Shown here: in pieces, positions 14,481-34,074 of the stretch | Numbering within the stretch: position 1 is the first letter of the stretch | Layout: every line of letters starts with the position of its first letter | Source: Staphylospora marina | GTDB lineage: Bacteria > Bacillota > Bacilli > Thermoactinomycetales > Thermoactinomycetaceae | Assembly: GCF_003856495.1 (NCBI RefSeq) | Contig: NZ_CP034118.1 | Coordinates: 724,001-788,000, forward strand | Direction: 5' to 3' | Length of the DNA stretch: 64,000 bases | Notes under the pieces: generated by a model | Told to the model about the DNA's origin: nothing | Database searches by the model: none | What the model saw: only the letters and a program-made list of their open reading frames with translations | Translations under genes and position numbers: made by a program

Positions 14481-14674
14481 CATCAAATTCGGGAAAAGAA
14501 ATATTATTTTTCATATTGTTACAGTTAATATAACAGGAGTTGAAAGAAGATTCTAATAGAAAATTTTCCCTTTATACGAATTCTTCTTTCTTATCATGTC
14601 TTTTTTCGTGTTAAACTGGTATTGAATTCGTAACTTTGCTTGTTACGCAACAGTATCAAACGGGAGGGAGCCAC

Positions 14675-15520
14675 ATGAATTCTTCACATACGCGCGGCGA
14701 ATTGCCTGAGAAAGGGATTTACACCGATTTTTTGAACCGGATGACTTACGGAGAATATCTGGGGCTTGACTCTCTGTTGTCCAGCCAACATCCATTGTCC
14801 GGCCATCATGACGAAATGTTGTTCATTATCATACATCAGACTTCCGAGCTGTGGATGAAATTGATCATTCACGAGTTGAAGGCGGCGATGGATTGCATCC
14901 ACCGTGGCGAATTGTCGATGTCGTTCAAAATGCTGGCCAGGGTGTCCCGGATCCAGGAACAGATCATCCGATCCTGGGACGTGTTGTCCACGTTGACACC
15001 GGCGGAATACATGGAGTTCCGCGACAAGTTGGGACAAGCTTCCGGATTCCAATCGTGGCAGTACCGGATGATCGAGTTTTATCTCGGCAACAAGAGTCAT
15101 CACATCATGGAGATTTACAAGAAGGATCCGGAACTGCTCGAAAAAATCAGGGAAGCGTTGGAGTCCCCCAGCCTGTATGACATCTCCATCCAGCAGCTGG
15201 CGAAAGCGGGTCTTCCGGTCGATCCGGGCGTGTTGGACCGTGATTGGACCCAGCCCTATCAGCCGCATCCGTCCGTGGAGGAAGCCTGGATGACCGTTTA
15301 CAAAAACGTGGACAAGTATTGGGACTTGTACCAGTTGGCCGAAAAATTGATCGATCTGGAGGACTGGCTCCAGCAATGGCGGTTCCGTCATCTCAAAACC
15401 GTCGAGCGGGTCATCGGATTCAAACGGGGAACGGGCGGATCTTCCGGGGTTCCGTATTTGAAGGGCGTGCTGGATCAACGGTTTTTCCCGGAGCTTTGGG
15501 ATCTGCGCACCCGGCTTTGA
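14675..15520 (+). CDS. kynA: Tryptophan 2,3-dioxygenase
   Basis: This heme enzyme opens the indole ring of L-tryptophan with O2 to give N-formylkynurenine. ATG 14675 is preceded by GGGAGGGAG. The 281-residue product matches the bacterial family length. The distal His54 lies in [18 protein letters not shown] and the proximal heme ligand His239 in [17 protein letters not shown], followed by the conserved [11 protein letters not shown] loop. It is the first gene of a kynA-kynU-kynB cluster, all plus strand. No 3-hydroxylase gene is nearby, so the route probably ends at anthranilate. Confidence 0.96.
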
Positions 15521-15592
15521 GAAGAGTGGAAGAATCTTCGGGCCCCGCGGCTTGAAAGCGATTTCAAGGCAAGAGGGAACATTTGCTCCGAA

Positions 15593-15622
15593 GCGCGTCG
15601 GTGCGAATATGCGCCGGCGCGC
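15593..15622 (+). promoter_or_regulatory. Strong GC hairpin between kynA and kynU
   Basis: GCGCGTCGGTGC pairs with GCGCCGGCGCGC (12 pairs, two G-U) around a 6-base loop. No T-run follows, so it may stabilise or process the transcript rather than end it. Confidence 0.4.
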
Positions 15623-15712
15623 GATGAGACAGGATCATCGTGTTTTCCATGAGTGTATCCCGAAGCAACCCCGAAGTATGCGTCCGGGATGGAGAGGAAT
15701 GGAGGGAACAAA

Positions 15713-16981
15713 ATGAGATCAGAGGAAAAGGCGCGTTTGCTGGACGAACGGGATCCGCTCGCTTCATTCAAAAGCGAATTTTATCTCAAAGAAGGGGTCA
15801 TCTATCTGGACGGCAATTCCCTGGGACTTCTTTCCCGCAGAGCGGAACGGTCCGTGCTGAAGTTGCTGGAGTCATGGAAAGAACTCGGCATCGACGGTTG
15901 GACCGAGGGAGAGCATCCCTGGTTTTGGTTGTCGGAACGCCTGGGCGCGAAAATGGCTCCCTTGGTCGGAGCCCTTGAGCATGAAGTGGTGGTGACCGGT
16001 TCCACCACCGTGAACTTGCACCAGCTGGTATCCACGTTTTACAAGCCGGAGGGCAGGAAAACCAAAATCCTTGCTGACGAGTTGAATTTTCCGTCCGACA
16101 TCTACGCTCTCAAAAGCCAGTTGGAACTTCGGGGGCTTGATCCCGAAGAACATTTGATCCGGGTGAAGAGCCGGGACGGTCGCTGTTTGGATGAAGGGGA
16201 CATCATCGCGCACATGACCGACGAGGTGGCGCTGATGCTTCTTCCGACGGTGTTGTACCGGAGCGGGCAGATCCTGGACGTGGAAAGACTCACCCGGGAG
16301 GCCCGGGCCCGCGGCATTGTGGCCGGCTGGGATGCCTGCCATTCGGCCGGAGCCGTCCCGCATCGGTTCCATGATTGGGACGTGGATTTCGCCTTCTGGT
16401 GCACGTACAAATACCTGAACAGCGGTCCGGGAGGGGTGGCGGCGCTGTTTGTTCACGAACGCCACCACGGAAAATCGCCGGGACTGGCCGGGTGGTTCGG
16501 ATCGGACAAGCAGAAACAATTCGACATGAGCCATGATTTCACGCCGGCCAAGGAAGCGGGAGCCTGGCAGATCGGCACCCCGCATGTTCTGTCGACGGCT
16601 TCGCTCATCGGCTCCCTGGAAATCTTTCATGAAGCGGGCATCGACCGGATCCGGGAGAAATCCCTTCAGTTGACGGACTGGATGATGGAACTCGTGGAAA
16701 CCGAGCTTGCGGGATACGGGTTTGACATCGGCACCCCGACGGAGGAAAATCGCAGGGGCGGACACGTGGCGCTGGAACATCCGGAAGCCGCCCGCATCTG
16801 CAAAGCACTGAAGGCGGACGGGGTGATTCCCGATTTCCGGGCCCCCAACGTGATCCGATTGGCTCCCGTCGCCCTTTACACCTCGTTCGGCGACGTTCTG
16901 GAAGCGATTCGCCGTCTGAAGGCCATCATGGATGAGAAGAAATATGAGCAATATGAAAACGAGAGGGGGGTGGTGGCCTGA
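15713..16981 (+). CDS. kynU: Kynureninase
   Basis: This PLP enzyme cleaves kynurenine to anthranilate and alanine. ATG 15713 has GGAGGG six bases upstream; the longer frame from 15653 lacks a site. The 422-residue product is the usual length. It shows [16 protein letters not shown] near the N-terminus, [18 protein letters not shown], and the PLP lysine (about Lys233) in [16 protein letters not shown]-terminal small domain reads [19 protein letters not shown]. The stop codon overlaps the start of kynB by one base (TGATG), so the two are coupled. Confidence 0.96.
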
Positions 16982-17601
16982 TGGCATGGATCGACATTAC
17001 CCGGCCGTTGCATGCCGGCATGCCCGTCTGGCCGGGGGATACCCCGTTTTCGTTCGAGCTTTCCTGGACCAAAGAGCAAAGCGGGTCGGTCAACGTCGGG
17101 CGGTGGGTGATGAGCTCGCATACCGGCACGCATGTGGATGCGCCGTTTCACTTTGACGAGGCCGGAAAGAAAATGCACGAGGTGGATCTGTCCCTGTATG
17201 CCGGTCCGGCGCTGGTTGTCCGTCTGCCGGAGCGCGGCAGCATCGGAGCTTCGGATCTGGAGGGGAAAGTGCCGGACGGAACCGAACGGCTTCTGATCCG
17301 CACCGATTCCTGGAAGGATCCTTCCGTCTTTCCGGAAACGTTCACCTTCATTCGGCCGGATGCCGCTCCGTTTCTGGCGAAAAAAGGGGTTCGTCTTTTG
17401 GGGTTGGATGTGCCGTCCGTCGATCCGGTGGACAGCAAAAGCCTGGATGCCCATCACAGCCTGCACCGGTTTGGCATCCATTTGCTGGAGTCGACGGATC
17501 TGTCCCGGGTGGAGGAAGGAGAATATGAATTGTTCGCTTTCCCGCTCCGTGTGGAAGGCGGGGACGGCAGCCCGGTCCGGGCGGTGCTCAGAAAGAAATG
17601 A
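16981..17601 (+). CDS. kynB: Arylformamidase (kynurenine formamidase)
   Basis: The enzyme hydrolyses N-formylkynurenine to kynurenine and formate. The 206-residue product belongs to the metal-dependent cyclase/KynB family. Ligands His47, His51 and Asp53 are in SSHTGTHVDAPFHF, the conserved WPGDTPF is near residue 17, and a late His pair lies in LDAHHSLHRFGIHLLE. It is translated by overlap with kynU. The three genes convert tryptophan to anthranilate plus alanine and formate. Confidence 0.95.
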   Translation: MAWIDITRPLHAGMPVWPGDTPFSFELSWTKEQSGSVNVGRWVMSSHTGTHVDAPFHFDEAGKKMHEVDLSLYAGPALVVRLPERGSIGASDLEGKVPDGTERLLIRTDSWKDPSVFPETFTFIRPDAAPFLAKKGVRLLGLDVPSVDPVDSKSLDAHHSLHRFGIHLLESTDLSRVEEGEYELFAFPLRVEGGDGSPVRAVLRKK

Positions 17602-22178: not shown

Positions 22179-22586
22179 TCCAATTTTATGTCACGAAGCG
22201 GATGAAGGTGAACACGGAAACAAATACTGGAGATTTGCTGGAAACATCTTGAATTTTTATAGAAAATTCTGTACAATTAGACTAACACCTTTGGTTGGGT
22301 GAAGCCGGATCCCGCCCGGGGACACCGTTCGGGGACGCCGACGGAGAAAAGACGGACCGGATGGTCCGGGGAGGAATTCCGTGAAAAGGCGAACCATCCA
22401 CGAACGGAAAAACGGACGCGGGACCCGGGAAACCGGCTGTGCCGAAATACGGCCCGTCTGCATGAAATGGCAGAAAGACCCGGTTGCCTGATGCGGGCGC
22501 CGGTTCCGTGCACCCCCGGCATCCGCAAGGTGCCTGTGTCAGTCGGATTCCGGAAGACCACTACCGGAGAAAGTGGGGATGCCGTG
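22179..22586. other. Intergenic region upstream of spoVR
   Basis: The stretch holds the spoVR promoter at 22249-22277 and then about 300 bases of leader. The spoVR frame is open through most of it (from 22299), but codon content there is not protein-like and no ribosome site supports a longer protein. Confidence 0.55.
22249..22277 (+). promoter_or_regulatory. SigA-like promoter upstream of spoVR
   Basis: TTGAAT and TACAAT are spaced by exactly 17 bases. In Bacillus subtilis spoVR is SigE-dependent, so a sporulation promoter nearer the gene is not excluded. Confidence 0.6.
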
Positions 22587-24005
22587 ATGAATGCGGATGA
22601 ACGGAAGGAGCTCGAACGGGCGATCCATGAAATCACGGAGATCGCCAAAGGATTCGGACTCGATTTTTTCGAGATGCGATATGAAATTTGTCCGGCGGAT
22701 ATCATATACACGTTCGGTGCGTACGGAATGCCCACGCGTTTTTCTCACTGGAGCTTCGGCAAGGCATTTCACAAAATGAAGCTTCAGTATGATCTCAACC
22801 TGAGCAAGATTTACGAGCTGGTGATCAATTCGGATCCGTGTTACGCCTTTTTGCTGAAAGGGAACAGCCTCACGCAAAACAAACTGATCGTGGCCCACGT
22901 GTTGGCGCACTCCGATTTTTTCAAGAACAACGTCCGATTCTCCAACACGCCCCGAGACATGGTGGAAACCATGGCGGCGAGCGCGGAAAGGATCCGTGGA
23001 TACGAGCTCAAGTACGGCAAGGAGACCGTGGAAACCTTTCTGGATCATGTCCTGGCCATTCAGGAACACGTGAACCCCAGCCTGATCGACGCCGTCAACA
23101 GGCAGCGAAGAATCAAAGACCGGAAGCCTGCCGGGAAACCGGTGAAAACCTCTCCGTACGATGATCTGTGGAAACTGGATGGGGAAAGGTCGGCACCGCC
23201 CGCGCCTCGTCCCGTCAAGCGCCGGTTTCCCGAAACCCCCGAAAAAGATTTGCTTTTGTTCATCATGGAAAACAGCCGCGTTCTGGAAGAGTGGCAGCAA
23301 GACATCATCACCATCGTACGCAACGAGATGTTGTACTTCTGGCCGCAACTCGAAACAAAGATCATGAATGAAGGATGGGCCAGCTATTGGCACATCAGGA
23401 TCATGCGCGAGCTGGACTTGAACGAAGCGGAGACGATCGAGTACGCCAGGTTGAACGCGTCGGTGCTTCAACCGTCATCCACATCGATCAACCCGTATTA
23501 TCTGGGTTTGAAGATTTTTGAGGATATTGAACGACGCTATGATCATCCGACGGAACAGGAGCAGAAAGAATTGGGGAGGAAGCCGGGGCAGGGGCGGAAA
23601 AAGATTTTTGAGGTTCGCGAGCTGGAATCGGACATTTCATTCCTCAGGAATTATCTGACCAAGGAACTGGTCGAGGACCTGGATCTCTACGTGTTCCAGA
23701 AAAAAGGCAACGAATGGACGATCACGGACAAAGACTGGACCGTTGTCCGGGATCAGCTGGTGGCCGGCCGGATCAACGGCGGACACCCGGTGATTCTCGT
23801 GCAGGACGGGGATTACCTGCAAAACGGGGAATTGTACCTCATTCACCGTTATGAGGGGATCGAGCTGGACATCAAATACTTGGAGAAGACGCTTCCGCAC
23901 GTATACGCGCTGTGGGGAAGGTCGGTTCACCTGGAAACCGTGATCGAGGATCGTCCGGTCGTTTTCTGCTACAACGGGACGAAATGCACGCGGCGGTTTG
24001 TCTGA
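22587..24005 (+). CDS. spoVR: Stage V sporulation protein R
   Basis: The 472-residue product has the full-length SpoVR family layout: [20 protein letters not shown] near the N-terminus, [32 protein letters not shown] in the centre and CTRRFV at the C-terminus. In Bacillus SpoVR is made in the mother cell and is needed for normal spore cortex; its biochemical role is unresolved. The start was taken at ATG 22587 after AAGTGGGG; GTG 22584 is an alternative. It is followed by a strong terminator shared with the convergent repeat-protein gene. Confidence 0.93.
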
Positions 24006-24065: not shown

Positions 24066-27000
24066 TCAGACTTCCCCTTCTTCGGAATGATTCGCCGGTG
24101 CGGAGTGAGCCTCCGCCTGATCGGAGGGATCCGCGGATGATGCGTCCTGAACTTCGGATCGTTCCGGGTCATCTTCCAAAGGTGCCGGGGTTTCGGGGGC
24201 AAGGTCTTCAGCGACGAACGGCTCCGTGGCCCCGTCCGTACCCGACGAAATGGTGGCGGTAAGGGCTTCTTTGGTCTCGTTCTCCGGGGCTGCCTGAACC
24301 GGTTGGAAGAGCCAGGGGAGAGTGAAATCGGGAGACAACGGAGATGCGATCCAGAACACGTGCCCGACAAGGGGGACGTTGGTTTGATCGGTGCGATGAA
24401 TGTGCAGGGTGAACTGCTCTTTCTCCAGGTGGAACAGGCTGGCGTGACAGAAAGGCTGATCCGTCATGGCCACCACGATGTAGGGGAACGGAACGGGTTC
24501 GCTGAGCGGGATTTTCAGCAGGGTTTCGGCATGTTCCTCGTCCAGACGGAATTCGCAGACGCCGGCACAGGTGGCAAAGCGTGCTCCGAATGCGGGAGGG
24601 GACTCCCCGACGAGTTGGTGCAGATCAAAGCTCAGTTTTTCCGGACCGATGGATCCGTCGGCGATATGTTCCGTCCGGACGGCGCCGGGGGCCAGTTTTT
24701 CCGCAGTGACGCATTCATCCGTCAAATGGAACTCCCGGATGACACCGTCTTGCAGATGGACTCCGCCGATTTGTCCCGGAGCGATGTGAGGCGACAAGAC
24801 GACCCGGTCCCCGATGTGCAGGGAATGGATGGTGCCCGGCCCGATTTTGTCTCGGGTGACGGCTCCGTTTTGCAAGTGGTGCTCCCCGATTTCTCCCTCG
24901 CGGATTTTGCTTCCCGTCACGGATTCATCGGCGAGATGGTCGTTTTTCACACATCCCTCGGAGAGATGAATCGATTGGACGGATTCCCTGGCCAGTTTTC
25001 CGGCGGTGACGGATTGGTCGGTGAGATGGTGCGTTTCAATCTGTCCGTGGGCGATCTTGTCGGATGTGATCGACGTTTCGGCCAGGTGTTCGGTGCGGAC
25101 GGACTCGGGAGCCAGTTTTTCCGCAGTGACACATCCGTCCGTCAAATGGAACTCCCGAATGACACCGTCTTGCAGATGGACTCCGCCGATTTGTCCCGGA
25201 GCGATGTGGGGGGACAGAACGACCCGGTCCCCGATGTGCCTGGATTCGATGGTGCCCGGTTCGATCTTGTCACCGGTGACGGCACCGTTTTGCAAATGGT
25301 GCCCGGCGATTTCATTCTCACGGATTTTGCTTCCCGTCACGGCTTCGTCGGCGAGATGATCGGTATGGATGCAATCGGCAGAAAGATGCAGCGATCGGAC
25401 GGATTCGGGAGCCAATTTTTCCGTGGTGACGCATTCATCCGTCAAATGAAAATCCCGGATGATCCCGTCCTCCAGATGAACGCCGCTGATTTGTCCCGGA
25501 GCGATATGCGTGGCAAGTACGGCCTGCTCTCCGATATGCCGGGATTCAATGGCGTCCGGTTCGATCTTGTCGCGGGTGACCGCTCCGTTTTGCAAATGAT
25601 GTTCTCCGATTTCGCCGCTGCGAATATGGCTTCCCTTCACGGATCCTTCGGCCAGATGGACGGATCTTACGCTCCCGGTCGAAAGATGTTCGGCGTGCAC
25701 GGATTCCGCGGCCAGTTTTTCGGCGGTGACCGATTGATCGACGAGATGATGGGTGCTGATCGCTTGTTCCGAGATATGACGCTTTTCAATGCATTCGCGT
25801 TGAATGTGACGGCCGCTGACGGATTCCGAGGCGAGTTTGTCACCGGTGACGGCCCCGTTTCGGAGATGTTGGGCTTCGACTTGCTCATAACCGATATGTT
25901 TGCCCGCGATGATCCGGTCGCCCAAGTGATTGGTTTGGATGCTTCCGGGTTCAATTTTGGAAGAGGTGACGGAACATTCGCCCAATTTCGCGGAAGTGAT
26001 GGCATAATCGATGATCTTGTCGGTCGAGATCGATTCCGGAGAAATTTTGGACGTGGTGATGGAGTGATCCAGCAGTTTTGAACCGGTGATCGAGTGGTTG
26101 GCGATGTGTTGCTCCGAGATGGCTCCGGGGCGGATATGCTCGCCGCCCACCAGATTTTCGGTCAAGTGTTCTTCAAGGATGATGCGCGATGTCAGATGTT
26201 TGGAATGAATGCTCCGTTCTTGGATCATGTCCGGACGGATGCTGTCGGGCATGAGATGCCGGTGGGACACGCACTGGTCTGCCAAATGCCCTTCCCTGAC
26301 GGCACCGGGAGCGAGATGTCGGGAATGGACGGCCTCGTGGTCGAGGTGTTCCGGGCCGATCGACCGTTCCGCAAGATTGTCGCGGGTGATGGAACCTTTT
26401 CCGAGGTGTTGGGAAGAAATGGACAGTTCTCCCAAGTGATGGGTTTTGATGGCGCCCGGGGCGATTTTGTCGGCCGTCACCGCTTCGTCGGCGAGTTTGT
26501 CATGGGTGACCGCATGCTGCTGGATTTTGGTTTCCGATACGGCATCATCGGCCAGTTTGGAGGTATTGACGGCATCATTCACCAAATGATGGGTTTGAAT
26601 GGTGGCGCTTTTCAGTTTTTGTCCGCTGATCACCTGGTCTGCCAAATGTTCGGCCTGGATTTGTCCCAAACCCAGGTGGTGTCCCAGAATGGACCTTTCT
26701 TTCAGTTTGGTGCCTTCGATGCTGTGGTCGACCAGCTTGCTTCCCGGGATTCCGTTGTCGCGGAAATGCCGGCCTTCGATGGTTTCGCGACGGATTTTCT
26801 CGCCGCTGATCGCGTCGTCGTCCAGATGGTGTTCCTTGATCGATTTGGGAGCGATTTTCGGCGGAGTGACGGATTCGGGGGCGAGAAGGATTTCGGTGAT
26901 GGAAGCGGGTTCGATGTGGTGGGTCCGGATCGTTCCGGTTTTGATTTTGGCTCCGTCCACGGCTTGATCCGCGATTTTTTCCGTGGTGACCGACAGATCG

Positions 27001-27254
27001 GTCAGATCATCCGTGTAAATGCGTTTCTTCCTTTCTTCGACCTTTTTGCGCGGAGGTTCCGCCGGCTTTTCAACCGGCCGATCTTCAGACGGCTGAACCT
27101 CAGGTGTCAAAGGGGAAGGCGGATGGAGAGAAATGTCCCTGCTTCGTTCCGATTGCTCCAGATCCTGCCGGATCAGTTCGTTCAGATAGACTTCGTCGTT
27201 GAAGGGTCGGCTTCGTGGCTTTCTTTTTGGAGGCTGAGGCTTTTTGTTACGCAT
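24066..27254 (-). CDS. Decapeptide-repeat structural protein with WIA-type C-terminal domain
   Basis: ATG 27254 follows AAGGAAAGGA. The 1062-residue product has a basic, Pro-rich N-terminus (1-87) with no signal peptide. Residues 88-877 are 79 consecutive ten-residue repeats without one insertion or deletion, consensus [A/S/T/C][V/I]xxx[K/H][L/I]xxx. A compact 110-residue domain follows (about 878-990) with FWIAS near 967, recalling the WIAG-tail domain of Paenibacillus/Bacillus repeat proteins. The tail (about 990-1062) is acidic and Pro/Ala-rich. The periodicity suggests a rigid beta-fibre, as in phage tail fibres. A spore-surface role is only inferred from its neighbours. Confidence 0.85.
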   Translation of the reverse strand: MRNKKPQPPKRKPRSRPFNDEVYLNELIRQDLEQSERSRDISLHPPSPLTPEVQPSEDRPVEKPAEPPRKKVEERKKRIYTDDLTDLSVTTEKIADQAVDGAKIKTGTIRTHHIEPASITEILLAPESVTPPKIAPKSIKEHHLDDDAISGEKIRRETIEGRHFRDNGIPGSKLVDHSIEGTKLKERSILGHHLGLGQIQAEHLADQVISGQKLKSATIQTHHLVNDAVNTSKLADDAVSETKIQQHAVTHDKLADEAVTADKIAPGAIKTHHLGELSISSQHLGKGSITRDNLAERSIGPEHLDHEAVHSRHLAPGAVREGHLADQCVSHRHLMPDSIRPDMIQERSIHSKHLTSRIILEEHLTENLVGGEHIRPGAISEQHIANHSITGSKLLDHSITTSKISPESISTDKIIDYAITSAKLGECSVTSSKIEPGSIQTNHLGDRIIAGKHIGYEQVEAQHLRNGAVTGDKLASESVSGRHIQRECIEKRHISEQAISTHHLVDQSVTAEKLAAESVHAEHLSTGSVRSVHLAEGSVKGSHIRSGEIGEHHLQNGAVTRDKIEPDAIESRHIGEQAVLATHIAPGQISGVHLEDGIIRDFHLTDECVTTEKLAPESVRSLHLSADCIHTDHLADEAVTGSKIRENEIAGHHLQNGAVTGDKIEPGTIESRHIGDRVVLSPHIAPGQIGGVHLQDGVIREFHLTDGCVTAEKLAPESVRTEHLAETSITSDKIAHGQIETHHLTDQSVTAGKLARESVQSIHLSEGCVKNDHLADESVTGSKIREGEIGEHHLQNGAVTRDKIGPGTIHSLHIGDRVVLSPHIAPGQIGGVHLQDGVIREFHLTDECVTAEKLAPGAVRTEHIADGSIGPEKLSFDLHQLVGESPPAFGARFATCAGVCEFRLDEEHAETLLKIPLSEPVPFPYIVVAMTDQPFCHASLFHLEKEQFTLHIHRTDQTNVPLVGHVFWIASPLSPDFTLPWLFQPVQAAPENETKEALTATISSGTDGATEPFVAEDLAPETPAPLEDDPERSEVQDASSADPSDQAEAHSAPANHSEEGEV
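24624..26993 (-). repeat. 79 tandem 30-base coding repeats
   Basis: The segment encoding residues 88-877 is 2370 bases, exactly 79 units of 30. Units near the C-terminal end are also alike at DNA level: the block starting EIxxHHLQNG recurs at units 47, 57 and 71, giving near-identical DNA about 420 bases apart (for example around 24720 and 25140). This indicates recent multi-unit duplication by recombination. Confidence 0.92.
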
Positions 27255-27370
27255 GTGGGGTCATCCTTTCCTTGAAGGATTGGCATCTGTACCCTTTATA
27301 TTCAATGTCAGCCCAAGGAGTGCAAAAGGCCGGGGCTTCGGTGGCGGAAGGTGGATCCCGTCTCCGGCGG

Positions 27371-27417: not shown

Positions 27418-27879
27418 TCATCTCTTGATTTCATCCGGGTGGTAATTTCCCCAGCCGAGCCACAACGTCGGTTTGCCCGTCGGTCCCTTGAACAGGTTGA
27501 ATGCTTTGAGCCCGCAGGAAAAGCAGAGTTTCAGGCTGGGGATGTTGTCGCAGGCCACACGGGTGTAGATTTTGTCCAGATGGTTCATCGCTTCCCGGAG
27601 CAAGGCTTCTCCCACTCCTTGGTTTCGTTTGGAGGGGTGTACGGCGATGAATGATTCATCAATGCCGAAACGACCGAATGCGATCACGCCGACCAGCCGG
27701 TTTTTTTCCAGAGCGGCCGCAATCCAGGTTCCCTCCGGGACATTCTCCGGCGTGAGCCGGCTCAGCCATCGGAGAGCGCGATGGGTGATCCGGCCGTCTC
27801 CGTGGAGCTTCATGAACCGGACGATGACGTGACGCACTTTCGGCAACTCGCCGGGAGAGATCCGCCGGATGGTGATCAT
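27418..27879 (-). CDS. GNAT-family N-acetyltransferase
   Basis: The 153-residue product has the GNAT fold: the acetyl-CoA loop RNQGVGEALLREAM near residues 84-97, preceded by the beta-strand GIDESFIAVHPS and followed by ACDNIPSLKLCFSCGLKAF. Its ATG overlaps the stop of the last ATP-grasp gene (ATGA) and GGAGGG lies just before, so it is the fifth gene of the operon. It may acetylate a small molecule or a protein handled by the ATP-grasp enzymes; the substrate is unknown. Confidence 0.83.
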   Translation of the reverse strand: MITIRRISPGELPKVRHVIVRFMKLHGDGRITHRALRWLSRLTPENVPEGTWIAAALEKNRLVGVIAFGRFGIDESFIAVHPSKRNQGVGEALLREAMNHLDKIYTRVACDNIPSLKLCFSCGLKAFNLFKGPTGKPTLWLGWGNYHPDEIKR

Positions 27880-29189
27880 TCTGATCCCTCCCGTTGTCGT
27901 TCGGCTTTGCTCAGATACATCGAGTACTCGATCAGACGGCGGAGGGATTTTTCCCGGATCTCCGGCTCGTCAAATTTCATCGGTTTGGCGTTTGCTTCGA
28001 AAAACCACAGGGTTCCGTTATTTTCCACGCCCATGTCAATGGACATTTCTCCGAGAGGGGACGGTTGCTTTTCTTCGATGAACCGGGCAATCGAAAGTCC
28101 CAGATTCCGCGCGGAGTCCAAGGTCTCGTCAGCCCGGTCGCCGAATACCTCTTGAAACACGACGTGCGTGCTTTCGATCCGTCCTCCCATCGGCACGTGC
28201 GTGGAGATGGAGGTTTCACCCGCCACCCGAATGCCGACGCCGGTGACTCCCCACTCGCCGTTCAAGTCTTTTTGCAACAGCATCCGGACGTCGAAGGGAC
28301 GGTTCCGGAATCGGGCGAGAGGAATGCCCTGTTGGACGATGTAGGGGCGTTGTTGGGCAAGTTTTCGGATTTGCGGCCACAAGCCGGCCAGATCCGGTTT
28401 GATCATCCGGTTTTTTTCCCGGGCTCCTTGGTGGATCAGTTCCACTCCGTCTCTGCCGAGAGTGATTCTCATCATCCCGATGCCCGCTTTGCCTTCGACC
28501 GGTTTGAGATAGATCACCCGATGAGAGGAGGCCATCCGTTTCAGGGTATCGAAACCGTCCAATCGAAAAGTGTTCGGCAGATGAGCACTGAGCCGGGGGG
28601 AGGTTCGCAGCTGATTGTAGAGGGTCCACTTGTCGAAGAAGCCGGGATTGAACAGATGGACTCCCGGTTTTTCACGGATGATGCGGAAGGCTTCCTGCAC
28701 TTCCCGGGATCGTTCGGACCGGCGGTTGGGAACCCGGTTGTAAACCACGTCGGGAAACGGCATTTTGACGGGGATCCAACGGGGGTTCCGTCTCCGGTGA
28801 TCAAGTTGATAGCCAAAGACCGTGTCCGAATCCGGACGGATCCCTCCCGGCGTGAGAACAAACACGGTCACTCCCATTTTTCTCCCCGTGCGAATGATGT
28901 CGACGAAGTTTCGGTGATTTCCGTGAAAGGGAGCGCCGCCGTCCGCGGCGAGGATGGCGATCACGGGTCTGTTTGCGGTGTCTCCGGATGGTCTGCTCCC
29001 CGTCGTCCGGCTGCCGGCCCGTTCGGCTTTTGACATGCCGGGTTGAGCCGGGGTTGCGGATTTCAAACGATCCGCGGGGATGACCGGGAACATTCCGGGG
29101 AATCCAAAGGTTCGCCGGTGACGGTGGAGGGCGGACAACAACAGGATGTTTTGTTCATGGATCATCATGCCTTCATCGGGTTTGTTCAC
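27876..29189 (-). CDS. YheC/YheD-family ATP-grasp protein (copy 4)
   Basis: The start is a GTG at 29189 with GGAGGG six bases upstream. The 437-residue product has a low-complexity N-terminus (about 30-75) followed by the family core: FPDVVYNRVPNRRSERS, LFNPGFFDKWTLYNQL, VIYLKPVEGKAGIGMMRI, and the metal-binding strand LWFFEANAKPMKF. Other copies read E-x-N-x-K; here the middle residue is Ala. YheC and YheD of Bacillus are associated with the spore coat and no reaction is established. It is fourth in the operon and overlaps the GNAT gene by four bases. Confidence 0.85.
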   Translation of the reverse strand: MNKPDEGMMIHEQNILLLSALHRHRRTFGFPGMFPVIPADRLKSATPAQPGMSKAERAGSRTTGSRPSGDTANRPVIAILAADGGAPFHGNHRNFVDIIRTGRKMGVTVFVLTPGGIRPDSDTVFGYQLDHRRRNPRWIPVKMPFPDVVYNRVPNRRSERSREVQEAFRIIREKPGVHLFNPGFFDKWTLYNQLRTSPRLSAHLPNTFRLDGFDTLKRMASSHRVIYLKPVEGKAGIGMMRITLGRDGVELIHQGAREKNRMIKPDLAGLWPQIRKLAQQRPYIVQQGIPLARFRNRPFDVRMLLQKDLNGEWGVTGVGIRVAGETSISTHVPMGGRIESTHVVFQEVFGDRADETLDSARNLGLSIARFIEEKQPSPLGEMSIDMGVENNGTLWFFEANAKPMKFDEPEIREKSLRRLIEYSMYLSKAERQREGSE

Positions 29190-29202
29190 CGGAGTCCCTC
29201 CT

Positions 29203-30576
29203 TCATATGAATTCCGCCAGTTTCAGGCTGTAATCGGTGATGTATTTTGCGGATTTTCTTCCCGCATCTTTGTAACTCGGGTGCTGAAAGATATGGCGTC
29301 CGGGTTTTGAATTGACTTCAAACAGCCAGACTCTTCCGCTGTGGTCGACCCCCATGTCCATTCCGAGTTCTCCCAGCGGGCCGTTGACCTGTTCTTCCAG
29401 CGCGCGGGCGATGAGGATGGCCGCGTTTCTGATGGAGGCTTCCACGCTGCGGGCGTTTTCCCGGAATGTTTTGGCGAGCAGTTCATCGGTGGGAAGGATG
29501 GATCCTCCGGTGCGAACATGCGTGGTGACACATCCGGATCCGGCGGCTTTTGAGGCGATCGCCACCACCTTCCATTCTCCCGATCCGTCTTTGTGCATGT
29601 GCACGCGAAAGTCCACCGGTCGGTTCTCATGCCGGATGAGCCGGATGCCCTGTTGAACGAGATACTTTTTGAAGCGGCTCGACTGGGGGCTTCCGAAATA
29701 ATGACTGATCAGTTTTTCCAATGAACGAAAGCGGTGCAACACGTTTTTGGTTCCCTGGTGGAACCGGCAATAGTATCCTTCCTTGGGATGGTGCGTGATC
29801 CTGAAAATGCCCATGCCCAGACTTCCCGTGTTGGGTTTCAGATACACCATCGAATGGCGCTCCAGCATCTTGTGCAGGGTGCCGATCGACGGGGAAAGAA
29901 CCGTTTCCGGTATGAACTCGCGGGTGATTTCGTGATTGCTGAGGAGTTGGTGAATCGACCACTTGTTGAAAAATCCCTGGTTGAAAATCTTGCAATGATA
30001 GGACTCGCGCAGCCGGCTCAGGCATGACTGGACGTGGCTGAGAGACTCCGCCTTCCGGTTGGGGACGCGTTCGTAGACCACATCCGGAAACGGTGAGACG
30101 ATCGGTTGCCAGCCGTTTTTGTGGTGTAGATAGTACCAACCGGAAATCGTCCGGTTTTGCCAATCGACCATGTCCGGAGTGAACACGTAGGTAATCGGTT
30201 TTTCCTCTTCCCCGCCTTGGATGAATCCCTTGAACAGGAAGGTTCGGACTCCGAACGGGGTCACCGGGTTTCCCGTGAATCCCGTGGTCAAAATGCCGAT
30301 GATCGGCCCGAGTTTCAGGGTTTTTCCGCGGAATGCGACCCGGACCTGACCGGTATAGGGAATGAGCAGTTGCCGGGCCATGGAGGGGTGGAAGAAGATG
30401 CGATACCCTTTGATCTTCCCGCGGACCACGCGGGTGATCAGGGATTTGTTGCCCAATTCCACCCGGATGGACTGACCGTTGGCGCATCCCCACAAATCCG
30501 CGAGGGACCGGCTGATCACGATGGCTGTCGACGGTGTTTGCGGATGAATCTGAATATGGCTGATGATCGAATTCAT
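29203..30576 (-). CDS. YheC/YheD-family ATP-grasp protein (copy 3)
   Basis: The 457-residue product starts at an ATG behind AGGAGGAT. It has an N-terminal beta-rich domain (residues 1-110, with SRSLADLWGCANGQSI) like that of copy 1, then the ATP-grasp core: PFPDVVYERVPNRKAES, IFNQGFFNKWSIHQLL, VYLKPNTGSLGMGIFRI, and RVWLFEVNSKPGRHIF. The ATG overlaps the stop of the previous gene and the stop is 14 bases from the next start. Four diverged copies suggest separate tasks rather than simple redundancy. Confidence 0.86.
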   Translation of the reverse strand: MNSIISHIQIHPQTPSTAIVISRSLADLWGCANGQSIRVELGNKSLITRVVRGKIKGYRIFFHPSMARQLLIPYTGQVRVAFRGKTLKLGPIIGILTTGFTGNPVTPFGVRTFLFKGFIQGGEEEKPITYVFTPDMVDWQNRTISGWYYLHHKNGWQPIVSPFPDVVYERVPNRKAESLSHVQSCLSRLRESYHCKIFNQGFFNKWSIHQLLSNHEITREFIPETVLSPSIGTLHKMLERHSMVYLKPNTGSLGMGIFRITHHPKEGYYCRFHQGTKNVLHRFRSLEKLISHYFGSPQSSRFKKYLVQQGIRLIRHENRPVDFRVHMHKDGSGEWKVVAIASKAAGSGCVTTHVRTGGSILPTDELLAKTFRENARSVEASIRNAAILIARALEEQVNGPLGELGMDMGVDHSGRVWLFEVNSKPGRHIFQHPSYKDAGRKSAKYITDYSLKLAEFI

Positions 30577-31691
30577 AGGGATCCTCCTGACGATGCGAGT
30601 AAGGCACCGGCATAAAGAATGGGGAGCCTTACCGCCCTTTTCCGGATGTCCAGTTCACCGGTGCGAATAAAAACCGTCCGGCCCGGTTTGGAATTGACCT
30701 CCAGGATCCAGACGTTCCCTTTCTTGTCGATGCCCACGTCAAGGCCCAGTTCGAGAAGCGGGCCGTGGTTTTTCTCGATGTGTGAAGGGACGGTCCGGCT
30801 GAGAAACCGGATGTTTTTCCGGATGGTGTTTGCAAGAGATTCGTCATAGTTCCCGGCCAGAAACTCTTCAAATTTGACGGCCTGACCGCCGCCGTGGAGA
30901 TTGGAGGTGATGGTCCGGGGATTTCCGATCCGGACGGCCATGCCCGTGGTCTCCCATGCAAATTGCTCGTTCTTCTGAACGAGGATTCGAACGTCGAACG
31001 GTCTGCCGTCCGCCGTGGTCAGATCGAGAAAAGGTTGAATCACATATCGGGTGTTGCCGATGAAATCCCGGATCCATCGCAGGAAATCGTCCAATCTGAA
31101 AAACCACGTTTCAAATGAGTGATTGGCTTTTGATCTTCCCCGGACCCACCACTTGTCGCCCGTTCGGTTGATGGCCACCACGCCGCGTCCGTGACTTCCT
31201 CCGTTGGGCTTGATCAAGACGCTTCCGAATTTGTCCAACCGTTCCAAAACGTCTTTGGGGGTCTGGTACCGGGCGGTTGGCGGAAGAAAGGGCTTGATTT
31301 CGGGATGGGTTGACAGAATTTCATGTGTTTGCATCTTGCCGCCGAGCGCCCTGCCGAGCAAACGGATGCCCGGATCATCCGCCACTTTCTGCACAAACGG
31401 TTTGTACCTGAGATAATGAGCGGAATCCAGATAATAGATCCGGTCATACACCAGCTTGGGGAGCGGTTCGGTTCCCCGAATCCATCTCCGGTCCGGCAGG
31501 ACGCTCCAGCCGGGAACGGTTCGGCTTTTCCAGTCGATGAATTTCGGATCGAACACGATGACGCGAATGCCCAGCCTCCGGCCCTCTTCGGAGAGTTGCA
31601 TGAAGTACGGGGCTTCGGTGAATGGTGAATGTTTTCCCTTCAATTCCTCGCTGATCATGATTCCCAGGGTCTCGATCCCTGTGCGCCTCAT
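30573..31691 (-). CDS. YheC/YheD-family ATP-grasp protein (copy 2)
   Basis: ATG 31691 is chosen for AAAGGAGG eight bases upstream and because it overlaps the stop of copy 1 (ATGA). The 372-residue product lacks the N-terminal beta-domain of copies 1 and 3, like B. subtilis YheC-type short forms. Core motifs are LPKLVYDRIYYLDS, VLIKPNGGSHGRGVVAI, ADGRPFDVRILVQK and NVWILEVNSKPGRTV. Three of the four copies keep the E-x-N-S-K-P metal motif. Substrate unknown. Confidence 0.86.
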   Translation of the reverse strand: MRRTGIETLGIMISEELKGKHSPFTEAPYFMQLSEEGRRLGIRVIVFDPKFIDWKSRTVPGWSVLPDRRWIRGTEPLPKLVYDRIYYLDSAHYLRYKPFVQKVADDPGIRLLGRALGGKMQTHEILSTHPEIKPFLPPTARYQTPKDVLERLDKFGSVLIKPNGGSHGRGVVAINRTGDKWWVRGRSKANHSFETWFFRLDDFLRWIRDFIGNTRYVIQPFLDLTTADGRPFDVRILVQKNEQFAWETTGMAVRIGNPRTITSNLHGGGQAVKFEEFLAGNYDESLANTIRKNIRFLSRTVPSHIEKNHGPLLELGLDVGIDKKGNVWILEVNSKPGRTVFIRTGELDIRKRAVRLPILYAGALLASSGGSL

Positions 31692-33118
31692 GTCGGTCTC
31701 CTCCTTTGCGCTTTCGTCGGTCGTTTCGGAGACCGGGGAGGGGAATGATTTCGCGTCACCATTCCGCAAAGAAAAAGAACGTATTCCAGCAACCTCCGGA
31801 CGGACGGGCGGGTGGAGAGCGACGGATTCAGGACCGTGTCATCGGTTTTGGAGGGTTTGGAGTTGATCTCGATCAACCAGACGTTTCCGTGAATGTCCAC
31901 GGCGAGGTCGATGCCGAGTTCCGCGTAATGGCCGCCGGCGATTCGCTCGAAGGTGGTGGCGATGTCGACGGCGATCCGTCTGATTTCGTTCAGCGCAGGT
32001 TTGCGGGCCGCTCCCAACAGCGGCAGGACTTCGGAGGCTTTGCGAATGGTGGCTCCCCTTGCCAGATTGGACACGATGTCGCTGTCATTGGCAATCCGGG
32101 CGACGGCGGACGTGATCTTCCATTCTCCCTTGCCGTCCTTTTGCACCAGGACGCGGAAATCCACTTGCCGATTGTCGTATTTGGCCAGTTGGAGTCCTTG
32201 CTGAAGGAGATAATCCTGTTTCCCCACCCGCCGCCGGAGAATGTGGACCATCTCCGTGAGCGTTTTTGTTTCCCGAGTGATGATTCCGCTTTGCGAAGCC
32301 GATTGGCAGATCCACTTGCCGGATCCTCGGCTGACCCGGCAGATTCCGCTGCCGAGAGAACCGTTGTTCGGTTTCAGGTACAAAATCGGGTGTCTGAGGA
32401 GCATTTCTTTGACGGATTTCGGGTGAAACCGGCAGGTCTCCGGGAGCATCCGCCGAATCTGCTCATCCTTGACGAGAATGTCGTACACTTCGATTTTGTT
32501 GAGGAATTGTTCATTGAAAACGGGGATGTGATAAATCCTTTTCATTCGGCTGAGCATGGTTTGCACGGACTCCTGCTGCTCCACTTTCCGGGAGGTGAGA
32601 CGGTTGTAAACGACGTCGGGGAGCGGCAATCGGACGGAGATCCACCGATCCTTGTTCCGGATCCAACCTTGCACCGATTTCCGTTCGAGATCGAGGCTGT
32701 CCGGAGAGAACACAAAGACCTGCAAACCTGCACCATGTCCCGCGAAGATGCATTCCTCCATGAATTTGGTCATGGCGCCGAACGGGAGCTCCTCGGTGGC
32801 ATCCGGCTGGGGATTGATGAGGATGCCCAGCAAAGGACCGATTCGCAAGCGGAACGTCCGGGGATCAAAGCGGGCATGGATCTTCGGAACGGAATGCATG
32901 TTCAGCTTCGCGGCCAGCGTCGAACTCACGCGGATCAGATTGCCGCCCGATCGGGATGCGGCGATCCTGGCAACGGAGGAAGCCGCTCCGAACGTGATCA
33001 GGAAGGGGTTGGAGCGGATATTGAGAATGCTTGCCAAGGACCGGCTCATGATCAGCTGGGTACCTTCCGGGAAGACATGGTCAGGCAGGATTTGGATCTG
33101 AACTCTCGCTTGCCCCAT
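31688..33118 (-). CDS. YheC/YheD-family ATP-grasp protein (copy 1)
   Basis: This is the first gene of the operon. The 476-residue product starts at an ATG behind GGAAGGGGA. Residues 1-110 form a beta-rich domain with MSRSLASILNIRSNPFL. The ATP-grasp core follows: LPDVVYNRLTSRKVEQQ, VFNEQFLNKIEVYDIL, LYLKPNNGSLGSGICRV, and NVWLIEINSKPSK. The C-terminal tail is strongly basic (RSPKRPTKAQRRRPT). A sporulation-type promoter lies just upstream, in keeping with mother-cell expression of yheCD in Bacillus. Confidence 0.86.
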   Translation of the reverse strand: MGQARVQIQILPDHVFPEGTQLIMSRSLASILNIRSNPFLITFGAASSVARIAASRSGGNLIRVSSTLAAKLNMHSVPKIHARFDPRTFRLRIGPLLGILINPQPDATEELPFGAMTKFMEECIFAGHGAGLQVFVFSPDSLDLERKSVQGWIRNKDRWISVRLPLPDVVYNRLTSRKVEQQESVQTMLSRMKRIYHIPVFNEQFLNKIEVYDILVKDEQIRRMLPETCRFHPKSVKEMLLRHPILYLKPNNGSLGSGICRVSRGSGKWICQSASQSGIITRETKTLTEMVHILRRRVGKQDYLLQQGLQLAKYDNRQVDFRVLVQKDGKGEWKITSAVARIANDSDIVSNLARGATIRKASEVLPLLGAARKPALNEIRRIAVDIATTFERIAGGHYAELGIDLAVDIHGNVWLIEINSKPSKTDDTVLNPSLSTRPSVRRLLEYVLFLCGMVTRNHSPPRSPKRPTKAQRRRPT

Positions 33119-33143
33119 GGGAATCCCCTTCCGCTTGAAATGC

Positions 33144-33177
33144 TAATGTATGCTATGTAGGCAAGTATTCGGGGGTG
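33144..33177 (-). promoter_or_regulatory. Candidate SigK/SigE promoter of the ATP-grasp operon
   Basis: On the minus strand CAC, 17 bases and CATAGCATA fit the SigK pattern AC-N17-CATAnnnTA. Overlapping it, CATACATT fits the SigE -10 CATACAnT, though its -35 is poor. The start point would fall about 20 bases before the first gene. Confidence 0.6.
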
Positions 33178-33390
33178 AAAAAAACAGGCTTGGCAGGTTT
33201 CCGGAGGCAAGCGCTTTCGAAAGCATCCTGCGGGGATGAAAATGATGGTATGATAAGTGGCAGGGGGGACAGATGTGCCGGATGGGGAAACGGGTGAAAA
33301 GCCTGTCCGGGAGGTTTTGATGCGGCCGGCTTGCAGGCCGGCTCGGCATGACGCATCTTCCCCGGGAAAGAAGGAAAAGGAGGTCTCCGT

Positions 33391-34074
33391 ATGCGCATTA
33401 CATATCATGGCCATTCATGCTTCGAATGGGTTCACGGATCCCACCGGATCTTGATCGATCCCTTCCTTTCCGGCAATCCGTCGGCCAAAGTCAAGCCGGA
33501 AGAGATCGACGCGAACTGGATCCTGCTCACCCACGGACACGGTGACCATCTGGGAGACACGGTGTCCATTGCGCTCCGGACCGGGGCCACGGTGATCGCT
33601 CCGCACGAGCTGGCCGTGTGGCTGCAAGGCAAAGGAGTCAACGTTCATGGCATGGGAGTCGGCGGCGGGTTCCGGTTTGAGTTCGGTCATGTGAAAATGA
33701 CCCCCGCTCTCCACGGAGGGGCCATCGAGGCGGACGGACAGGTGTTGTATGGCGGCAGCCCGGCCGGATATCTCGTCACCGTGGACGGCAAAAGAATCTA
33801 TCACGCCGGTGACACCGCCCTGTTTTCCGACATGAAACTGATTTCCCGGGGAGAACCCGTTGACTTGGCCCTGCTTCCCATCGGTGACAATTACACGATG
33901 GGCCCGGAAGACGCATTGATCGCCGCCGAGTGGTTGAACGCCCGTCACGTCGTGCCGATGCACTACGGAACGTTCCCGGTGATCGAACAGGATCCCCATG
34001 CGTTCGTGAGCCGACTGGAGCAAAAGGGAATTGGCGGAACGGTGATGAAACCCGGGGATACGCTGGAGCTGTGA
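33391..34074 (+). CDS. ytkL: Metallo-beta-lactamase-fold hydrolase (UPF0173, YtkL-like)
   Basis: The 227-residue product is a metal-dependent hydrolase of the UPF0173 family, usual length. It begins MRITYHGHSCFEW, has the di-metal motif LTHGHGDHLGD (residues about 47-57), YHAGDTALFSDMKL and the late ligand HVVPMHYGTFP. ATG 33391 follows AAGGAGG. The position next to ytoI matches Bacillus gene order. Substrate is unknown. Confidence 0.9.
   Translation: MRITYHGHSCFEWVHGSHRILIDPFLSGNPSAKVKPEEIDANWILLTHGHGDHLGDTVSIALRTGATVIAPHELAVWLQGKGVNVHGMGVGGGFRFEFGHVKMTPALHGGAIEADGQVLYGGSPAGYLVTVDGKRIYHAGDTALFSDMKLISRGEPVDLALLPIGDNYTMGPEDALIAAEWLNARHVVPMHYGTFPVIEQDPHAFVSRLEQKGIGGTVMKPGDTLEL

Follow-up and report, generated by a model that had tools for sequence, protein, structure and literature searches.

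A conserved cluster of four YheC/D-type ATP-grasp genes and an acetyltransferase gene with a sigma-K-like promoter in Staphylospora marina and other Bacilli

The gene cluster and its promoter

In a 64,000-nucleotide stretch of the Staphylospora marina genome (the window; positions 724,001 to 788,000 of contig NZ_CP034118.1, assembly GCF_003856495.1), five genes are packed as an operon on the minus strand, the first beginning at 33118 and the last ending at 27418. Genes A to D encode ATP-grasp ligases of the YheC/D-type family PF14398, and the final gene encodes a GNAT-type acetyltransferase. All five lie where an earlier sequence-only reading had placed them. The 4-base overlaps (ATGA) that it described are present at A/B, B/C and D/GNAT, but the single gap, between C and D, is 13 bases and not 14.

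All four ligases match PF14398 at 242.7–279.7 bits against a cut-off of 26.8. Gene A (31688..33118, 262.9 bits) and gene C (29203..30576, 279.7 bits) carry an N-terminal β-domain, gene B (30573..31691, 257.1 bits) is without it, and gene D (27876..29189, 242.7 bits) has an N-terminus without confident structure. Gene B starts at an ATG preceded by the ribosome-binding site AAAGGAGGAGA, and the TTG at 31769 merely yields the longest open reading frame (ORF). The start of gene D is a GTG preceded by AAGGAGGG. The GNAT gene (27418..27879) scores 32.4 bits with PF00583, above the cut-off of 20.7, and matches PF13508 and PF13673 above theirs.

About 45 bases before gene A lies a conserved 48-base block (33139..33186, minus strand) that reads TTTT...CACC...GCCtACATAnnAT...TAG. 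It contains a sigma-K-like site (33149-33176) with AC at 33175-33176, a spacer of 17 bases and CATAGCATA at 33149-33157, in keeping with the sigma-K consensus AC-N16/17-CATAnnnTA. The 14-base core GCCYACATANNATA occurs once in the genome, at this promoter. The same genome has a sigK gene scoring above the family cut-off, and spoIVA.

Conservation was followed in 42 genomes of the order Thermoactinomycetales (hereafter the order), where cluster regions were fetched from 40 besides the window. The named loci were the best 80 of 358 with gene D as the query, so only genomes with D were sampled; 68 of them are outside the order by name. The promoter sets left out one locus (L002), three duplicate upstream regions, 11 named loci that duplicated order loci, any locus with fewer than 300 bases ahead of gene A, and the genomes that keep only a pair of the genes, which have no gene A.

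The 48-base block exceeds the 99% level of shuffles in 39 of the 40 order loci (all but L017, with a matrix leaving out similar sites) and in 55 of the 76 regions outside the order. Seeding the matrix with the core pattern made the core perfectly conserved by construction, which does not apply to the conserved TTTT and CAC. The strict pattern AC-N15-17-CATAnnnTA occurs in 26/40 order and 24/76 outside regions, against 0.25 and 0.38 in the shuffles, and the spacing is 17 bases in 54/54 strict matches even though 15–17 were permitted. This class-wide footprint backs the sigma-K promoter of the sequence-only reading and suggests that the operon is expressed late, in the mother cell under sigma-K.

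That reading also saw a sigma-E-like −10 in the site. The hexamer letters are indeed there, but a matching −35 at the proper distance is not conserved: a full sigma-E promoter, searched as a −35 with a CATACAnT-type −10 (run without a positive control), was found in 1/40 order and 0/76 outside regions. A GerE-like core on the reverse strand of the block (consensus TRGGY) was discarded, since at many Paenibacillus sites the corresponding bases are GTCCTC or GCCCTC.

Four ligase groups and their conservation

Related families give much lower scores than PF14398. The sugar-transfer associated ATP-grasp family PF14397 (cut-off 31.4) gives 32.4 bits with B, just above the cut-off, 29.2 with A, 27.2 with C and no match with D, on the same residues where PF14398 gives >240 bits. 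The RimK family (rimK_fam, NCBIfam TIGR00768) stays below its cut-off, at 18.7 versus 143.4 bits for B with A, C and D not listed, and so does the tubulin-tyrosine ligase (TTL) family PF03133 (cut-off 20.1), at 19.8 for B and 19.2 bits for A.

The models and alignments agree with the earlier division into two proteins with an N-terminal domain and two without it. In the C model (pLDDT 93.5 over the whole), this domain spans roughly residues 1-89 and is β-rich and well predicted, with seven strands and two helices. Alignment of A with C starts at residue 7 so the domain is common to both, while the alignment with C begins only at C residue 118 for B and C residue 91 for D. The D model has a pLDDT of 83.4, and its first 64 residues, in a shorter ATG-start version, fall below 50. 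A hidden β-domain in D is therefore unsupported by either the model or the alignment.

Against a viral structure library, C weakly matched RNA-polymerase subunits (E 0.008-0.08) and the UFD1 N-domain (E 0.095), although which part of the model was aligned is not stated. The N-terminal domain might, at a guess, be a double-psi barrel; the PDB comparison barely covered this part.

The catalytic part of C resembles several known ligases. RimK is the best match to the model (Z 22.4, 275 residues, rmsd 3.3), followed by glutathione synthetase (20.6), ArgX of the ArgX/LysX type (20.0), TTLL6 (18.2), PsnB (18.2) and TTL (17.8, 8asn). The D model matches D-Ala-D-Ala ligases, RimK, PsnB, TTL and glutathione synthetase by Foldseek, and a sequence profile retrieved from solved structures only two E. 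coli-type glutathione synthetase sequences (E 4e-4, ~60 positions). RimK, LysX/ArgX, glutathione synthetase and TTL/TTLL share the ATP-grasp fold with the cluster ligases over nearly the whole catalytic part, at Z 17.8-22.4. They differ in having 11-19% identity in the aligned rows, and the rimK_fam and TTL profiles remain below cut-off.

The columns that we take to be catalytic (two Lys, Gln, Asp-x-Arg, Lys, Glu, Asp, Glu and Asn) are 92-100% conserved within each of the groups A to D, with 55–63 sequences per group. In view of this conservation in every group, a pseudoenzyme among them was rejected, and A to D appear to be four diverged, active ligases.

The groups are distinct near the active site. 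The loops read VSNLARGG in A, TSNLHGGG in B, TTHVRTGG in C and STHVPMGG in D, and the metal-binding Asn leads into NSKPSK in A, NSKPGR in B and in C, and NAKPMK continuing FDEP in D. In the window, gene A has VSNLARGA at the loop and then EINSKPSK, genes B and C have EVNSKPGR, and gene D has FEANAKPMKFDEP after its STHVPMGG. Such group-specific motifs would be expected if the acceptors or the amino acids differ between the enzymes.

The gene set is highly conserved in the order. PF14398 is found in 42/42 genomes, and A-B-C-D stand in this order in 40 of the 41 genomes having the cluster, the 41st being cut by a contig end and showing B-C-D-GNAT. The GNAT gene is in the cluster in 40/40 fetched loci, and 39/40 have the complete A-B-C-D-GNAT, including L050, where the stretch holds an additional B-like gene at another place, and L057, where B appears as two overlapping ORFs. 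In the remaining genome, G041, three weaker PF14398 matches and no cluster were found. This gene-order mapping excluded ORFs under 60-100 amino acids and BLAST hits below set scores.

Outside the order, A-B-C-D is complete in 64 of the 68 named loci. Another 19 loci in the class were hand-picked from the first entries listed for it, omitting L109, which was fetched for a single B-like gene. They comprise 14 with A-B-C-D, one with A-C-D, one with B-C-D on a short contig, one with C and D only and two with B-C only. As a side observation, loci outside the order frequently carry a fifth, B-like ATP-grasp gene behind D or GNAT, and in many of these cases no GNAT was recognized (L092, L095-L097, L100, L101 and many of L122-L189).

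In a FastTree phylogeny of 241 sequences, A, B, C and D form separate clades spanning several families, with split supports of 0.987, 0.981, 0.996 and 0.97, respectively. The five sequences that fall outside these clades are extra paralogues and two genes of a divergent locus (L104). As each clade spans families, the duplications predate the split of the sampled families, and the four-gene set is not a local expansion.

Of the four groups, the two pair-only genomes (L103 and L108) retain only B and C, arranged as B-C, and their genes place in clades B and C of the tree, which is without the B. subtilis yheC/yheD sequences. B and C would thereby be candidate orthologues of yheC and yheD, respectively. 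Most simply, they lost A and D. The sequence-only reading noted that B. subtilis has just a yheCD pair; this difference is better read as pair-only genomes having lost A, D and GNAT than as a gain here, and a Bacillus-type pair looks like a reduction.

The decapeptide-repeat protein and other neighbors

Downstream of the GNAT gene, after 163 bases in the window, lies a decapeptide-repeat gene on the same strand (24066..27254) that is apparently a separate transcription unit. Its 1062-residue product holds ~94 ten-residue units by our own pattern and a WIAG-tail domain at residues 898-970 (NF012201, 38 bits against a cut-off of 33). It is the one WIAG-tail gene in the 2.75-Mb genome, which has seven PF14398 genes, four of them being A to D. 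The open-licence literature on WIAG-tail yielded nothing beyond an algal virus.

The sequence-only reading took this neighbor as a sign of a spore-surface locus and called for its co-occurrence with the cluster in related genomes. A repeat gene does follow GNAT on the same strand at a distance of up to 2 kb in 23 of the 40 fetched order loci and in the window (24/41). It is 7.0 and 8.5 kb from the cluster in two more loci and elsewhere in the genome in five (G001, G002, G018, G025 and G026), and two fragmented genomes are uninformative on its location. The co-occurrence is thus present but incomplete, as in eight cluster-bearing genomes, taken up below, the repeat protein was not found.

The association extends outside the order. 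WIAG-gene surroundings were obtained from 58 genomes there as stretches of 9.8-19.9 kb with unequal flanks, the repeat gene being re-found by BLAST in 55, and PF14398-like neighbors were called with our own profile at E up to 1e-5. Such a neighbor is near the repeat gene in 27/58 loci, compared with a rough gene-density expectation of ~5%. In 22 it is divergent at <500 bases (two genera of one family, f9), in four it lies at 1.4-2.6 kb (three further genera) and in one at 7.3 kb. Being 22-32% identical to A to D in the first 20 loci, these neighbors are other paralogues.

In still another family, a WIAG repeat protein of 2384 residues has four further PF14398-type ORFs nearby, one after the other (L200:2771-7294), also 22-32% identical to A to D. 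The strongest evidence for a putative functional tie is that PF14398 genes accompany such a repeat protein in several different arrangements, although sampling is clade-heavy so the independent association events are few, perhaps three or four. Within the class sample of 299 genomes, WIAG-tail matches occur in 79 and PF14398 matches in 202, and all the 79 have at least five PF14398 matches (counted by eye, with at most eight candidates scored in most genomes).

Upstream of the repeat gene we noticed an element of its own, GTTTCC-N15-G(A/C)ATATA, in 16 of 28 order regions (for example L016, L015 and L028) against a mean of 0 in shuffles. The window copy at ~27290-27310 keeps GAATATA alone. The element is not known to match any sigma consensus. 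As a signal of a wider regulon it was rejected, because a tightened pattern matched only the repeat gene's own site in two of four genomes and nothing in the other two.

In 25 order loci an opposite-strand gene lies between GNAT and the repeat gene or SpoVR (for example L016:8188-8940), and in the three members scanned it encodes an NlpC/P60 peptidase. It was rejected as an operon partner, being on the opposite strand and absent from the window. A SpoVR-like gene (ORF 22299-24005) converges on the decapeptide-repeat gene; SpoVR, MgtE and CBS are provisional labels. A metallo-β-lactamase (MBL)-fold hydrolase gene (33391-34074) lies upstream of the operon and is divergent from it. At 14636-17601, adjacent genes resemble those for tryptophan 2,3-dioxygenase, kynureninase and kynurenine formamidase, judged by eye from the translations.

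Possible roles at the spore surface

The PF14398 family and the coat location of YheD are already known. B. subtilis YheC and YheD share this family with A to D; they are two genes assigned to the sigma-E set and upregulated by SpoIIID (PMC517825), in contrast to the four genes with GNAT and the sigma-K-type promoter here. YheD is deposited in a SpoIVA-dependent manner, forms a shell around the spore and interacts strongly with itself, and its function was still described as unknown in 2021 (PMC7911427). A Paenibacillus yheCD-like gene, orf14, is called a YheC/D family protein in PMC5627462; unlike the cluster, it is a single gene intervening between gyrA and gyrB in the replication-origin region.

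The closest parallel is the R2K-clade operons, in which distinct ATP-grasp ligases are linked to each other or to a GNAT, and PMC4431377 proposes that the linked ligases act successively and that the linked GNAT may acyl-cap the product. They belong to another ATP-grasp clade, and the word spore is absent from that paper. Neither the four-gene set nor its sigma-K footprint nor the link with WIAG proteins was found described in the open-licence literature. Earlier work by Iyer et al. in 2009 on amidoligases is said to have predicted a spore or capsule role for the PF14398 family.

We tentatively prefer, at a little under even chances, that the cluster is a sigma-K operon of RimK/LysX-like ligases modifying spore-coat polypeptides, with GNAT capping. 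The late mother-cell operon would make four non-redundant carboxylate-amine ligases of the RimK/LysX/glutathione-synthetase fold, these would act on coat polypeptides in S. marina, and the GNAT may cap or acetylate their product. WIAG-tail decapeptide-repeat proteins would be the leading candidate substrate or partner in the lineages having them. Coat-localized peptide ligation is favored by the proposal in PMC4431377 taken together with the fold and the timing evidence.

Several points weigh against this preference. The fold does not give the chemistry, so the reaction and the substrate are predictions. Timing seems to differ in the best-studied relative, since the B. subtilis genes are sigma-E genes (PMC517825). 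Outside the order, the GNAT was recognized in only 19/68 named loci, where a diverged GNAT may be missed. The remaining points concern the repeat protein, and they equally feed the rival that it is an unrelated neighbor in a syntenic region with the ligases acting on something else, which is a serious possibility short of even and is compatible with the other readings.

The repeat protein was not found in eight order genomes keeping the cluster (protein search 0/8), and a rerun matched 5/5 known-positive genomes and again 0/3 negatives. Nor does it share the promoter type: the strict sigma-K site is upstream of the repeat gene in 0/28 order and 2/53 outside regions, so a sigma-K promoter for it is unsupported, and is upstream of PF14398 genes beside the repeat gene outside the order in 1/28. 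Upstream regions of the repeat gene were set by its longest ORF, which may misplace some starts. The upstream elements of the operon and the repeat gene thus differ. Within the order, linkage by itself counts for little, because the flanking MBL (39/40) and SpoVR (28/40) genes are also linked. In f27, the family with Brevibacillus panacihumi, no PF14398 gene is near the WIAG repeat gene within the fetched stretch in 25/25 loci.

Against a chance neighborhood stand the 27/58 loci, though with different paralogues and arrangements, and the 79 WIAG-positive genomes rich in PF14398. The latter is confounded by sporulation, and G041, outside the class sample, has a WIAG match with only three PF14398 matches. 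Overall, the link of the cluster with the repeat protein appears real but partial. Of the proposed spore-surface locus, an association in more than one arrangement stands, but a requirement of the four-gene set for the repeat protein and a shared promoter type are unsupported.

Two other rivals concern the ligases themselves. A to D may join building blocks in turn into a small oligopeptide that the GNAT caps, giving a spore-associated metabolite instead of a protein modification. The tandem non-redundant ligases with GNAT suit the successive ligation and capping of the PMC4431377 proposal, glutathione synthetase ranks high among the fold matches and the active-site loops vary by group. However, the pair-only genomes keep B and C alone, the spore surface carries a protein shell formed by YheD in the account of PMC7911427, and no further gene besides GNAT was seen to be common to the clusters, a weak point as only window-like genes were mapped. 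We consider such an assembly line rather unlikely. Very improbable is that A to D are mainly structural coat components with a retained fold and minor or vestigial catalysis: this accords with the self-association and spore encasement of YheD in the same account, but a purely structural use leaves unexplained the near-invariant catalytic columns in all four groups.

The preferred coat-modifying operon can be extended to a widespread spore-surface tagging in Bacilli, where four sigma-K ligases would build an amino-acid side chain on coat or repeat-fiber proteins, capped by GNAT and partly lost in B. subtilis. We regard this broader version as unlikely. If it is true, endospores would carry a ribosome-independent peptide decoration that went unnoticed because B. 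subtilis partly lost it.

In summary, if the Bacillus pair is the remnant of a four-enzyme sigma-K-timed operon of Thermoactinomycetales, Paenibacillus, Brevibacillus and relatives, the reaction would be more readily found in organisms with the full set, with the WIAG-tail repeat protein as a candidate partner. Should the ligases act on coat polypeptides, endospores would bear a post-translational peptide modification of a kind that we did not find described in the open-licence literature.

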